Positions 43,855-48,823 of a DNA stretch of 64,000 nucleotides are shown piece by piece. Source of the DNA: an uncultured Flavobacteriales bacterium. GTDB taxonomy: Bacteria > Bacteroidota > Bacteroidia > Flavobacteriales_G > Salibacteraceae. The stretch is taken from NCBI GenBank assembly GCA_905479105.1, contig CAJQLE010000005.1, positions 186,001 through 250,000 on the forward strand. The letters run 5' to 3'. The translations under genes and the position numbers were made by a program. The notes beneath the pieces were generated by a model. The model searched no databases and was not told the DNA's origin. It saw nothing but the letters and a program-made list of their open reading frames with translations. The first letter of the stretch is position 1. The number at the start of each line of letters is the position of its first letter.

Positions 43855-44058
43855 GGTCCAATTCTTTAATCAGCCTGAGATTTTGGCTTAGCCGCCACCC
43901 TCGAGCGCGCTTGAGCGCATTCGCATTTTATGACAAAGGTCCATATCAATTCTCCTTCAAATCATACAAAGAAGGTGAAGAGTAGTAAGCCTTGAAAGTG
44001 ATTGCTTAGAGTAAAGGTTTTTAGTTATTTTCACGAACATTTGCAGATTATTAGCTAC

Positions 44059-46806
44059 GTGAAAAAACTCTTCTTTTTGGGTCTTTCGTTATTATTAGCG
44101 CTAGGAGCGAGATCTCAATGCTTGGTGAATATTAATAAGCCTGATACTGCGTCACAAATCTGCGGAACAACGGATTCCCTAGATGTTGGTAACGCTTCTG
44201 TAACTCCGATCAATAATACGTTTAACAATGGCTCGGTTGGCTTCGGCTGGTCGGTCACAAGTGCTGCTCAATTCAACAACCCTTGTGGTGTTGCTCCAAC
44301 TACTTACCTATGGATGGGACCCACTAGCACTGCTCCTAGAACACTGGCTACTATACCAATAAACGTCAGCTGTGGAGGGCAAGTTTGTTTTGAATTAAAA
44401 TTTGCTCAGCAATCTAATCCCTCACCATGCGAAGGCCCAGATTTGGCAAATGAAGGAGTTGACCTGCAGTATAGAATTTTTAGTGGGGCTTGGACAAATA
44501 TCTTTTATTTCCAACCAAACCAAAATGGCAATAATAATGCGGCTTGTTTCAATTGTGGAGATTATACAGCTTGGGCGACTTATTGTTTTACTATACCCGT
44601 AGCTGCGCAAACCGCCACCACAGAATTTAGATGGATACAAACCAATTCATCTCAGAATCTATTCGACCACTGGGGATTAGACTCCGCTGTAATTACTAAT
44701 AACTGTGCTGAAGTATCTCACCTTTGGAATACAGGCGACACGACAACCAGTATAGAAATACTTTCATTGGAAGATTCCACCTATTGGTGCAGAAGAATAG
44801 TAAATCAACTTGACACCTGCTTTGACACCGTGAGAGTGATCAGCGAACGACCTGATCCGCATTTGAGTATTGTTCCAAATATTCCTATATGTGAGGGAAC
44901 TGAAGTTGAATTAAGAGTTGATTCTGTGTCTTGGATTGACTCTACAGTTACCTACAATAAACTCTGGACTCCTTCATCAATGGTGGTTTCTCCCAATTTT
45001 GACACAACCTTATCTCACCCAATAACGCAAGACACTGCATTTACGTTAACCGTCACCCACCCTCAATATTCACAATGCTCTGGATATGATACTTTAAGTG
45101 TCGAAATTGATAACAACCTGGCATTTGATTCTATTACTATTCTCGATGAATATTGCAACAATTCTGATGGGCTAATACAAGTGATGATGACCGGTGGAAC
45201 TGGACAATATTGGTACGACATAAACAACACTTACAATACGTCTGATAGTAGACAAAATTTGCTTGCCATTACCTATCCTATCCATGTCTTAGACACCTTG
45301 ACTGGATGTGAATTAGACACTTCTGTAAACGTTCCTTTCAACATAGGCATTCAATTGGATGATCTGTGGTTCGGAAGCCCCGATTGTCCTGGCGGAGATA
45401 CTTCTGCCAAGGTTTGGTCTGTCAATAACTATAGTGCTATAACTTACCATTGGTATAAAAATGGAACTCAGTTTAGAAATAATACAACCGTCTTAAATAC
45501 CGACTCAATCAATGGGTTAACAAAAGGAAATTACACCGTAATCATAAGCGATCAAAAATGTAAGGACACTGTTGAATTTGTTATAATTGAACCCGACACT
45601 TTGATGCTGAGTTTAACAGGCAGTGACACCCTTTGTAATGTCCGAGAACTAGAGCTTATACCTATTTTAAGTGGCGGCACACCGCCTTACACTACTGATT
45701 GGTTTAGTACAATTTCTCCTACATATTTTGTGAGAGGAAACCAAGATACTACCGTATTTGTATACTTTGAAGATAGCAGAGGTTGTATTTCAGAGACGTT
45801 CTCTTACGACCTTTATTTACCCCCATCCATCGAGACTAACCTCAGAGACACTGCAATCTGCAAAGGCTCCATTGTATTTCTTGATCCTGATACTAAGTTC
45901 GGTACGGGTAAGTATGCGTTTACTTGGAATACAGGATGGACCAGTGAAACACTACCGACAAATACGCTCTCAAACAAAACCTATTTTCTGACGGTAGAAG
46001 ATGGTTGTCTATATCCTCACCTCGACACAGCAGCGATCAGAATATTTCAACAACCCGATCCCAAATTGAGATGGGATCCCGTGTGTTTACCTCAAGAAAT
46101 GACTGTGTCGACCGATGTGGGGTACAAGAATTATTATTGGTTTCTAAATGGTGATTCTATATTTAGTTCGAATGATCATAAAATCTCCTTAAACCTTGAC
46201 GGAGTGACACCTATTCATTGGCGTTTTCAAACGGAAGATGATTGCTATGTTTACGGTGAGGACACTTTAGTGGCTTACGCACAGCCATCTGCAGACTTCG
46301 ATTGGGATTATAATTTATACGATCCTTTGTACAATAACGAAGTGGTATTTTATAATTACTCCACTGATTATTCAGAATTAGTCTGGTCTTTCCCTGGTGA
46401 TAAACAATATGGTGAAGTGGCCACTCACATATATCCTGAAGCAGGTTTTTATTCAATCAAGCTAGAGGCCACTAATGGATTTTGTAAAGATGATACTGTC
46501 CGTAATATTGAGATAATACCTGTCGGAAACATTTATGTCCCGAATGCATTCACACCAAACAATGATGGTGTGAATGATGTATTTAAACCTTCAATAATCA
46601 ACATTGAAGAAGACAGTTATCAATTTTCAGTTTTCAACCGTTGGGGTAATCTTATCTTCGAAACCACAGACACAAATCAAGGGTGGAGTGGCAATTTCAA
46701 GGGGACTGCATCCCAAGAAGGTATTTACGTTTACGTGATTAGGGCAAAAACCAAAGATGGTAGGTTGTTAGATTTAACAGGAGAAATTACCTTAACTCGC
46801 TACTAG
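44059..46806 (+). CDS. large surface protein with gliding-type (T9SS type B) C-terminal domain
   Basis: A ~915-residue secreted protein. A GTG start at 44059 is preferred, as it gives the signal peptide MKKLFFLGLSLLLALGARSQ directly; upstream TTG codons would add an untypical extension. The body has many repeated beta modules with motifs such as GNYTVIISDQKC and a PKD-like domain near residues 765-835 (FDWDYNLYD to AGFYSIKLEATNGFC). The C-terminal ~90 residues, from VPNAFTPNNDGVNDVFKP through FNRWGNLIFETT, form the type B (gliding motility-associated) sorting domain. Probably an adhesin-like surface protein; ligand unknown. Confidence 0.92.
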   Translation: MKKLFFLGLSLLLALGARSQCLVNINKPDTASQICGTTDSLDVGNASVTPINNTFNNGSVGFGWSVTSAAQFNNPCGVAPTTYLWMGPTSTAPRTLATIPINVSCGGQVCFELKFAQQSNPSPCEGPDLANEGVDLQYRIFSGAWTNIFYFQPNQNGNNNAACFNCGDYTAWATYCFTIPVAAQTATTEFRWIQTNSSQNLFDHWGLDSAVITNNCAEVSHLWNTGDTTTSIEILSLEDSTYWCRRIVNQLDTCFDTVRVISERPDPHLSIVPNIPICEGTEVELRVDSVSWIDSTVTYNKLWTPSSMVVSPNFDTTLSHPITQDTAFTLTVTHPQYSQCSGYDTLSVEIDNNLAFDSITILDEYCNNSDGLIQVMMTGGTGQYWYDINNTYNTSDSRQNLLAITYPIHVLDTLTGCELDTSVNVPFNIGIQLDDLWFGSPDCPGGDTSAKVWSVNNYSAITYHWYKNGTQFRNNTTVLNTDSINGLTKGNYTVIISDQKCKDTVEFVIIEPDTLMLSLTGSDTLCNVRELELIPILSGGTPPYTTDWFSTISPTYFVRGNQDTTVFVYFEDSRGCISETFSYDLYLPPSIETNLRDTAICKGSIVFLDPDTKFGTGKYAFTWNTGWTSETLPTNTLSNKTYFLTVEDGCLYPHLDTAAIRIFQQPDPKLRWDPVCLPQEMTVSTDVGYKNYYWFLNGDSIFSSNDHKISLNLDGVTPIHWRFQTEDDCYVYGEDTLVAYAQPSADFDWDYNLYDPLYNNEVVFYNYSTDYSELVWSFPGDKQYGEVATHIYPEAGFYSIKLEATNGFCKDDTVRNIEIIPVGNIYVPNAFTPNNDGVNDVFKPSIINIEEDSYQFSVFNRWGNLIFETTDTNQGWSGNFKGTASQEGIYVYVIRAKTKDGRLLDLTGEITLTRY

Positions 46807-46848
46807 ATAGTAGATACCTAAAGGCAGAGCTTATTATCTAACTAAAGC

Positions 46849-47022
46849 TTAGCTCCCACAGCCAACACAGTCGATCTCCGAGCTAGTTGGCTTCACACCA
46901 TTTAATTTCATTTCCAGGTTATGGATCTTATCTCTGGCTTCCATGTCTTGGAAAAGGTCTCCGGTTAATGTTGCTTTAAGTCCATCAATTTTAGTTTGCA
47001 ATTCTTGGTTCATAATCTTCAT
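46849..47022 (-). CDS. 57-residue protein ending in a CVGCGS motif
   Basis: A small ORF in an otherwise empty 330-base gap. It encodes MKIMNQELQTKIDGLKATLT, then GDLFQDMEARDKIHNLEMKL, and ends NGVKPTSSEIDCVGCGS. The middle part is strongly amphipathic and helix-forming, and the C terminus has a Cys-x-x-Cys followed by Gly-Ser. Coding is supported by composition and by the helix-tail organisation rather than by homology checked here. It may start at the ATG 9 bases further in (MNQELQ). It lies 119 bases downstream of the RluA-type gene's stop codon on the same strand, so read-through is possible. A metal- or redox-related role is suggested only by the cysteines. Confidence 0.65.
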   Translation of the reverse strand: MKIMNQELQTKIDGLKATLTGDLFQDMEARDKIHNLEMKLNGVKPTSSEIDCVGCGS

Positions 47023-47140
47023 TTTATCTATCTTATGAAACTAAGGAAACTGTCTTGCTCGACTAGAAAACTTATCCCTACTTATTAGGAATCCATTGTG
47101 AATAAGGGAAGTGTTTTGTGCTAAAACCCTTTAAATCAGG

Positions 47141-48823
47141 TTAAAACGGAACACTAACCTCGAGGGTTATGACTTCTTTTGTTATTGGATGTAAAAACTG
47201 CAACTGCTCTGCATGCAGATGTAAACGGTCTGAAATAGTACCGTATAAATCATCGCCTACAATAGGTGTATTTAATCCCAAATGATGCGCAGCATGCACA
47301 CGCAGTTGATGCGATCTTCCGGTAATTGGATAAAAATAAACTCTTGATTTTCCATCCTTCACTTCGATCAATTCCCATTTTGTTTTAGCAGACTTTCCGT
47401 GATCATAACACACCAACTGCCTTGGTCGATCATCCAAGTCTACGCGCAATGGCAAATCAATTTCACCGCTGGTTTCGGTCAATTCTCCATCTAGTAAAGC
47501 TATATAACGCTTCTTGACACTACGTTTTAAAAATTGTCGCTGAAGGCTTTTATGCATCTCCTTGGTCTTGGCTAAAAGCAAGATCCCTGAGGTGCTCATA
47601 TCTAAGCGATGGACAATCAAAGGTCCGGTTGATTCAGGATAGAGCAGTTTGATGCGGCTATATACTGAATCGATTATTGTTTTTCCTGGAACCGACAAAA
47701 ACTCCGCGGGTTTATTCACCGCTAATAAATAATCATCTTCATGAATGATTTCGAGTGTCTTTCCTTCTGCAGGGTTGGTGAGCATGGGATTTGGATCAAC
47801 ATCCAATCCTTTCAACATGTGTCCTAAAATAGGTTCGCACTTCCCTCGGCATGCAGGATAAAATTGCTGGTGCTTTCTTACTTCTGACTTTGGCGAAGCT
47901 CCCCACCAAAACTCAGCCATTGCGATGGGTTTTAAATCATGCTGATAGGCATAATGCAACAATTTAGGAGCCGCACACTCCCCTGCTCCAGCGGGAGGTG
48001 TTTTCTGCTCTGTATCTTCAAAAATGGAAAGTAAACTCCGCCACTCTTTATTACTGTTCAAGAATTTATACTGATCAAACAATCGCCTTTGCAAAGCTCC
48101 TGAGCGTTCTTTGCGTTCCTCTTTCAACGACTGAACCTCATTCGCAAATGCATCATATTCTGCTTGTGCCTTTTGCACTGTCGCGCGCCAATGTTTGGCT
48201 AATCGTTTATATTGATATTGATCGTCCAAACTCAACTTTACCAACTCTGCCTCTAGCATTTGATATTGCTCAGTTGTCAATTCAAGTCTAGCATCCTCTC
48301 GCTTCTTCTTTCGAATCTTCTTTCCTTGCTTGATCACCAATCTCTGCTCCGATAATTCTTGATCAGACTGGAGCGTTAACTCATTCAAAATGAACGAAGT
48401 CTTGGATAAACCTGGGTTTTGTTCTAGCTTCACCAAAGCAGCAGTCATTACATTCAGCTTATCTTCCTCTTTCCTGTAAAAGCCATCCTTATGCAACAAA
48501 TCAAATACAGGTGGCACGAAAAAAGGATGATGGTTTTTACCCGCCAATTTCCCGGAAAAGGCCGCTAAAAAACCCAATTTATTCTCAGCGTTTTGCACCA
48601 CCAACACGCCAAACATTTTTCCAATGATCATTCCTTCTTGATCAGGATTCAGTCCAAAATTGTGATCCCATTTATGTGTTGAGATGTGCAGCTGAAGCTG
48701 CTTCACCGCTTCAATACTTAGCGGATGCGGTTCATAATAAAATGGAAAGGTGAAACGCTCTGGTAATGAAACGTCATCCACTTTTCGATCAAATGATATA
48801 AAGCAAGAAGGCTTAGTTGGCAT
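47141..48823 (-). CDS. RluA-family pseudouridine synthase with long N-terminal extension
   Basis: A 560-residue protein. The C-terminal ~215 residues are an RluA/RsuA-superfamily RNA pseudouridine synthase: EIIHEDDYLLAVNKPAEFLSVPG, HRLDMSTSGILLLAK with the catalytic Asp, and ITGRSHQLRVHAAHHLGLNTPIVGDDLYG (parts shown). The first ~340 residues are an extension with a helical, coiled-coil-like centre (AKHWRATVQKAQAEYDAFANEV in part) and a Cys-containing segment (PACRGKCEPILGHML). Such extended forms occur in Bacteroidota and some Gammaproteobacteria. The RNA target is unknown; the extension may be a binding domain. Separated by about 40 bases from the MFS gene upstream. Confidence 0.9.
   Translation of the reverse strand: MPTKPSCFISFDRKVDDVSLPERFTFPFYYEPHPLSIEAVKQLQLHISTHKWDHNFGLNPDQEGMIIGKMFGVLVVQNAENKLGFLAAFSGKLAGKNHHPFFVPPVFDLLHKDGFYRKEEDKLNVMTAALVKLEQNPGLSKTSFILNELTLQSDQELSEQRLVIKQGKKIRKKKREDARLELTTEQYQMLEAELVKLSLDDQYQYKRLAKHWRATVQKAQAEYDAFANEVQSLKEERKERSGALQRRLFDQYKFLNSNKEWRSLLSIFEDTEQKTPPAGAGECAAPKLLHYAYQHDLKPIAMAEFWWGASPKSEVRKHQQFYPACRGKCEPILGHMLKGLDVDPNPMLTNPAEGKTLEIIHEDDYLLAVNKPAEFLSVPGKTIIDSVYSRIKLLYPESTGPLIVHRLDMSTSGILLLAKTKEMHKSLQRQFLKRSVKKRYIALLDGELTETSGEIDLPLRVDLDDRPRQLVCYDHGKSAKTKWELIEVKDGKSRVYFYPITGRSHQLRVHAAHHLGLNTPIVGDDLYGTISDRLHLHAEQLQFLHPITKEVITLEVSVPF

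Follow-up and report, generated by a model that had tools for sequence, protein, structure and literature searches.

A 57-residue Bacteroidota protein with a C-terminal CxxCGS tail and its relatives in phage contigs

A short open reading frame between two larger genes

The window, by which we mean the whole stretch of 64,000 nucleotides that was analysed, contains a gap of 334 bases between a gene for a T9SS type B sorting-domain (CHU_C) protein and a gene for an RluA-type pseudouridine synthase. A small-protein gene lies in this gap on the minus strand, running from 47022 down to 46849, and its translation, MKIMNQELQTKIDGLKATLTGDLFQDMEARDKIHNLEMKLNGVKPTSSEIDCVGCGS, has 57 residues and ends in CVGCGS (Table 1). 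The earlier note had described this frame, without giving a strand, as lying in an otherwise empty gap between a surface-protein gene and an RluA-type gene. We found it as described: the gap held no second open reading frame longer than 31 codons, and the plus-strand reading of the same bases contained two stops. By Pfam, the flanks of the small gene were ordinary. Besides its sorting domain, the T9SS-type protein matched Pfam Reelin_subrepeat-B (E = 2e-12), and the first ~345 residues encoded by the 560-codon RluA-type gene had no Pfam or NCBIfam match.

A scan of positions 46700-47300 detected no sigma-70-type promoter (Bacteroidota promoters lie outside that scan), no minus-strand terminator and no Rfam match. 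The homologues at loci L004, L012 and L014 have an ATG at the second start position and none at the first, and by sequence the second ATG of the window gene may be the true start. Since open reading frames of 66-97 codons lie across neighbouring genes in the window, a length of 57 codons is unremarkable. Length alone is no evidence for a gene; judged from the sequence comparisons below, it is conservation together with a low dN/dS among relatives that lifts the frame above chance.

Table 1. Coordinates of the small-protein gene, its predicted parts and its neighbours in the window
Feature	Position	Strand	Basis or remark
Small-protein gene, 57 codons + stop	46849..47022	minus	ORF list, homologue searches
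Alternative start ATG	47013-47011	minus	gives 54 residues (MNQEL...)
Predicted helix 1, residues 3-17	46972..47016	minus	AlphaFold2, 22 and 94 sequences
Predicted helix 2, residues 23-41, after conserved LTGD turn	46900..46956	minus	AlphaFold2 and 137-member alignment
C-terminal tail Cys-Val-Gly-Cys-Gly-Ser, residues 52-57	46852..46869	minus	alignment, hairpin-only control
RluA-type pseudouridine synthase gene	47141..48823	minus	upstream of small gene, same strand, 118 bases apart
T9SS type B sorting-domain (CHU_C) protein gene	44002..46806	plus	convergent neighbour of small gene

A predicted hairpin with a conserved tail

We compared 137 different members of the family, 38 from bacterial genomes and 99 viral, leaving out plasmid-record copies and viral pieces shorter than 45 residues. 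Both Cys of the tail and I33 were invariant, and G21 and D26 were present in 99% and 98% of the members, respectively. The tail read CxxCGS in 131 members and CxxC[GSA][SGA] in all 137; in each of them the second Cys was followed by exactly two residues, the first of which was Gly in 96%. An acidic residue preceded the first Cys in 115/137. Only seven members had a further Cys beyond the tail pair, and the remaining 130 had two Cys only. The CxxC found in every member supports the view that the frame of the earlier note encodes a real small protein with a conserved Cys tail.

The AlphaFold2 models built from 22 and from 94 sequences had the same elements, and their two helices agree with the helix-forming body proposed earlier. 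The mean pLDDT was 88-94 for residues 11-40 and 50-59 for the tail. The predicted fold is a two-helix hairpin followed by a linker of variable length and the tail; between L36 and the first Cys the linker measured 15-22 residues in 94 aligned members. To check for circularity, we searched the six frames of 1.81 Mb with a profile restricted to the hairpin, and the tail was present in 243 of 244 matches with E < 1e-4. Among these matches a single gene is often represented by several locus ids, and full-length queries had originally served to collect the loci. The sole tail-less match was a copy in the plasmid record CP045836, which we read as a frameshift because the tail is intact in the other copy of that record.

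Such an end could be a site of covalent modification or conjugation, either as a RiPP-like core or as a ubiquitin-like end, with the hairpin serving as leader. That the Cys pair keeps a constant distance from the free C terminus in 137/137 members suggests that the end itself is recognised. Against this reading, body and tail are both conserved, and no RiPP-type variable core followed a conserved leader, the tail being invariant in the 137 members. When genes were compared as clusters, a minority of the neighbours being annotated, no neighbour family was common to the 25 bacterial or the 168 viral loci. We consider modification of the end very unlikely. The small-peptide precursor that the earlier note had offered is likewise unlikely, given the conservation of both parts and the lack of a neighbour family common to the partly annotated loci.

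Distribution and selection in bacteria

A search with the single sequence gave matches in 18 of 60 related genomes, and a profile built from 22 members gave matches in 27 of 395 genomes of the class. In the phylum sample the gene was found in 7/395 genomes; there were eight matches, of which that in G724 (E = 8e-5) was counted out as chance, its frame having no tail. Within the window's taxonomic family 16/35 genomes carried the gene. This count leaves out G023 (E = 0.008), where profile positions 20-44 matched in a 481-codon frame and the match was gone at E 0.001. Within the window's genus the figure was 8/13. Salibacter halophilus and an uncultured Microscilla are among the named organisms that carry the gene. 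The small gene is dispensable, as it was absent from 19 of the 35 family genomes, from 368 of the 395 in the class sample and from the near-complete (99%) genome G011 of the same genus, in which no match was detected.

One genome, G059, has two copies, at L026 and at L029/L053, with the tails CLSCGS and CLYCGS; the second is located on a contig of 5.1 kb that may be a piece of a plasmid or phage. The window's own genome contains another DNA-level match to the pattern CxxCGS-stop, at L246 (G000:C3:630088-630108).

The comparison of dN/dS among homologues that had been suggested earlier gave values far below 1, so that neither of the two outcomes named in the earlier note as refuting, a tail without conservation or a dN/dS near 1, was observed. 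By the Nei-Gojobori method an estimate was possible for 12 of 21 pairs (eight host and four viral, three of them with dS >2), and the ratio in these was 0.015-0.161. The other nine pairs were saturated at synonymous sites, including all six with the window sequence, for which pS was 0.79-1.00 vs a pN of 0.14-0.24. The pattern of substitutions demonstrates, at the level of the aligned codons, purifying selection on the small protein. Frames of this size do arise by chance in the window, but a chance frame without function is refuted by the conservation and the dN/dS values and can be set aside as next to impossible. We hold with hardly any doubt that the gene is real.

Relatives in several groups of phages

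We scanned IMG/VR with hairpin patterns, followed by confirmation with the full sequence, and counted 248 stretches encoding relatives, of which the best 80 were retrieved. Two further scans with other members yielded 53 and 59 loci, partly overlapping. The 168 viral loci compared here include at least six second fetches of one contig and many close copies. When loci sharing at least two gene families were joined, they fell into seven sets of 61, 54, 46, 4, 1, 1 and 1; the number depends on the threshold and was 12 with three shared families and two (167 and 1) with one. Functions of phage genes were assigned by scanning one or two representatives of each set against PHROG or the PDB, and in these representatives portal, terminase and other phage genes adjoin the homologues. 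No relative turned up when 50,697 phage records were searched with three queries; the single match, with E = 2, fell within a gene for RNA polymerase. We are nevertheless confident that the small protein is shared with phages, and several distinct tailed-phage groups that carry it probably infect the same Bacteroidota hosts.

The surroundings differed from set to set. In the 46-set a phrog_19091 gene lay directly upstream of the small gene in 43 loci; the order small gene, one short gene, portal (phrog_33693, E = 6e-103) was seen in 42, and a gene for a virion structural protein was located further upstream. In the 54-set a GroES-like gene (phrog_13932, E = 6e-22) occurred within four genes downstream in 43 loci, in 22 of them as the next gene, and terminase (phrog_6681, E = 1e-177) and portal genes followed it. 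In the 61-set a terminase gene (phrog_2, E = 8e-43) was directly upstream in six loci and a ThyX gene (PDB match, E = 8e-33) was present in 26, next to the small gene in 11. A DNA polymerase gene was nearby in L149 and a Mom-like gene in L109.

Two of the large phage groups thus have the small gene beside portal, terminase or head genes or separated from them by a few genes, and six loci of the third have it directly behind terminase. This speaks for a helper in phage head assembly or packaging whose gene some hosts captured and kept, for example as an interference factor vs infecting phages. Other phages, however, place it near the ThyX, DNA polymerase or Mom-like genes, and its clade in the window's genus (see below) speaks for long residence in bacteria. 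A role of this kind is unlikely in our estimate.

The GroES-like neighbours raise the question of a co-factor of the GroEL/GroES chaperonin. The cluster, of which one member was scanned, is found within four genes in 43 of the 168 viral loci, and genes for both GroEL and GroES occur in five (L209, L237, L238, L078 and L102), of which L209 and L237 have them near the small gene. In L209 the best PDB matches had E = 4e-115 for GroEL and E = 4e-7 for GroES. All 43 and all five loci belong to the one group of 54, however; no such gene cluster was found in the other phage groups and none was seen at the bacterial copies, which makes a chaperonin co-factor highly improbable. The best PDB match of the L209 GroEL was an ancestral Fibrobacteres-Chlorobi-Bacteroidetes chaperonin.

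The ThyX neighbours bear on another reading, that of a mobile, redox-active dithiol in the tail: with the hairpin docked on an enzyme, the flexible CxxC end would carry electrons, as the C-terminal Cys pairs of ribonucleotide reductase and thioredoxin reductase do. The position of the CxxC on a tail predicted to be disordered, the acidic residue that usually precedes it and the presence of ThyX, an enzyme of nucleotide metabolism, in 26 of the 168 viral loci all agree with electron transfer. The Gly behind the second Cys does not, since it matches the zinc-knuckle consensus and, to our knowledge, thioredoxin-type motifs have no Gly at this place. Nor was any neighbour family common to the loci when genes were compared as clusters. 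We regard a redox tail as possible but unlikely.

In the 54-set the small gene was found on either side of one gene pair, from which we conclude that it moves. Differing neighbours among phage groups and a switched side within one are as expected of an independent accessory gene.

Relatives were also carried by the plasmid records CP045836.1 and NZ_CP040811.1 (L155-L157), with two homologues annotated as hypothetical proteins. These Lysinibacillus and Escherichia 'plasmids' appear to contain nearly identical phage-like sequence, the gene order in CP045836 repeats after ~33 kb, and both are likely misassigned or contaminant records.

Probable gene traffic between hosts and phages

At the 25 bacterial loci flanking genes were common mainly to close relatives. 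The commonest cluster of next genes, a loose cluster of large T9SS-type genes, adjoined the small gene at three of them (window, L072 and L073); because such genes are common, we take this adjacency as more likely chance than a link. An operon with rluA was rejected as a general explanation, as an RluA-type gene is the next gene only in the window, one of the 25 loci. Neither phage genes nor prophage copies were recognised by eye when the N-terminal 60 residues encoded by each of 44 flanking genes, from 22 of the 25 loci, were inspected; many of these genes could not be named.

In a tree of the 137 members, built on 55 columns and with an unsettled bootstrap and many open forks, host and phage rows interleaved. 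There were 13 changes between the two, at least four of them forced by well-supported branches, so that the tree would ask for repeated crossing of the gene between phages and hosts. Of the seven different sequences found in the window's genus, six formed one clade with one sequence from another genus (support 99/98), so that the gene has long been resident in that clade; the seventh (G001) was placed elsewhere with poor support.

Database searches and comparison with known systems

Neither Pfam nor NCBIfam contained a model that matched the window protein at E up to 1. Searches with more members produced stray matches only: for 22 members in Pfam the best E was 0.0012, with at most six members per family, and for 94 members the best E was 0.002 in PHROGs, 0.0089 (one member) in NCBIfam and 0.0013 (up to three members) in PADLOC. 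On these sequence searches no family of the four collections clearly covers the small protein. Foldseek gave five matches in the PDB, none with E <4.9. The nearest structure matches were three unannotated viral proteins, A0A6J5N4J0, A0A1B1INU2 and A0A6J5M4Z4 (probability 1.00, 1.00 and 0.89), of similar length and 33-36% identical over 52-64 columns, with weak E-values of 0.04-0.7 and an rmsd of 7.5-10.5. Two of them are named as uncharacterised proteins of uncultured Caudovirales phages and one is nameless; none has an annotated function. Two chains compared with VIA-align gave Z 4.8 and 2.7.

A profile of the chaperone Spy matched ~30 helical residues (profile positions 4-33 or 3-33; E = 6e-4), covering helices only. 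Spy is exported, is not known to have a CxxCGS tail and forms a continuous helix where the small-protein family has the LTGD turn; we do not take the match as kinship. In the TraR/DksA-type regulators of RNA polymerase the CxxCG element is part of a complete four-Cys zinc finger, whereas nearly all members of the present family have two Cys only. The likeness lies in a small protein with a helical part and a CxxCG element that is common to hosts and mobile elements. TraR-type proteins are described as small regulators in hosts, plasmids and phages (PMC11323111). The Pfam models of TraR/DksA matched none of 22 members at E up to 1, a search in which very short proteins can be missed. On the Cys count we do not place the small protein in that family.

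The Rad50 zinc hook resembles the arrangement proposed here in having a two-helix element and a CxxC half-site completed by a second chain; in Rad50, two CxxC motifs from two chains form one intermolecular zinc site (PMC5093744). The Rad50 motif sits in a loop at the apex of the long coiled coil of an ATPase, whereas the protein described here is short and carries its CxxC on the C-terminal tail, at a distance of 15-22 residues from L36 of helix 2. In architecture it is not a Rad50-type hook. No paper was found that contains the string CVGCGS or describes the family, and large catalogues of small proteins may list it without a name (PMC11364881).

A possible docking hairpin with a metal half-site

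The reading that we favour, tentatively and at less than even confidence, is that the hairpin docks on a conserved partner and that the C-terminal CxxCG half-site binds a metal together with a second chain. Of the roles offered in the earlier note, metal binding is thus the best guess. The CxxCG end would supply half of a tetrahedral zinc (or iron) site. With a further Cys in only seven of the 137 members, a site of four Cys has to draw on a second chain, which could be another copy of the small protein or the partner. The partner is probably a conserved host component, given that the phage and host proteins resemble each other in spite of different gene surroundings; docking of the hairpin onto it would account for the likeness. 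Phages would carry the gene as a transplantable accessory that adjusts a host machine during infection, and the bacterial copies would act in the same way while serving the cell itself.

We count in favour of a metal half-site several features of the sequences: the family is conserved, the tail is inseparable from the hairpin, an acidic residue commonly precedes the first Cys, the CxxCG resembles a knuckle and the protein is shared with phages. The zinc-knuckle consensus CPXCG (PMC4999995) is close to the CxxCG found here. In four viral loci (L148, L150, L151 and L203) an open reading frame of 22 residues with nine Cys, metallothionein-like and with the Cys kept in all four variants, is located directly upstream of the small gene. 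By its sequence it is a possible phage metal-binding micro-peptide, and its presence is a hint of a metal or thiol context. Its absence from the other 164 of 168 viral loci counts against the metal half-site, as do the dispensability of the gene and the low pLDDT predicted for the tail, although a single-chain prediction cannot show a shared site. The head and packaging surroundings in two large phage groups and part of a third would also fit a role in virion assembly. On balance the metal half-site is favoured over the redox tail and then, in this order, over the assembly role, the modified end and the chaperonin co-factor.

A wider proposal, which we consider doubtful, is that of an undescribed module by which distinct Bacteroidota phages act on one deeply conserved host machine, the portable hairpin with its CxxCGS hook completing the metal site of the target; in some hosts the gene would have been domesticated, to serve as decoy, as immunity factor or as the host's own regulator. 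A protein of ~55 residues that is similar between hosts and no fewer than three phage groups, and whose tail is invariant in all the intact copies examined, must make contact with something conserved. Its small size allows synthesis and use as bait, so that a search for the partner is directly feasible. The family would also mark gene traffic between phages and Bacteroidota and represents a gap in Pfam, NCBIfam and PHROGs.

A palindrome upstream of some phage copies

In 14 of the 168 viral loci (e.g. L079), all of them part of one phage group, the palindrome GACAGTA-CAC-TACTGT[CT] was present upstream of the small gene, 52 bases ahead of the point at which the profile match begins. It is a possible operator.
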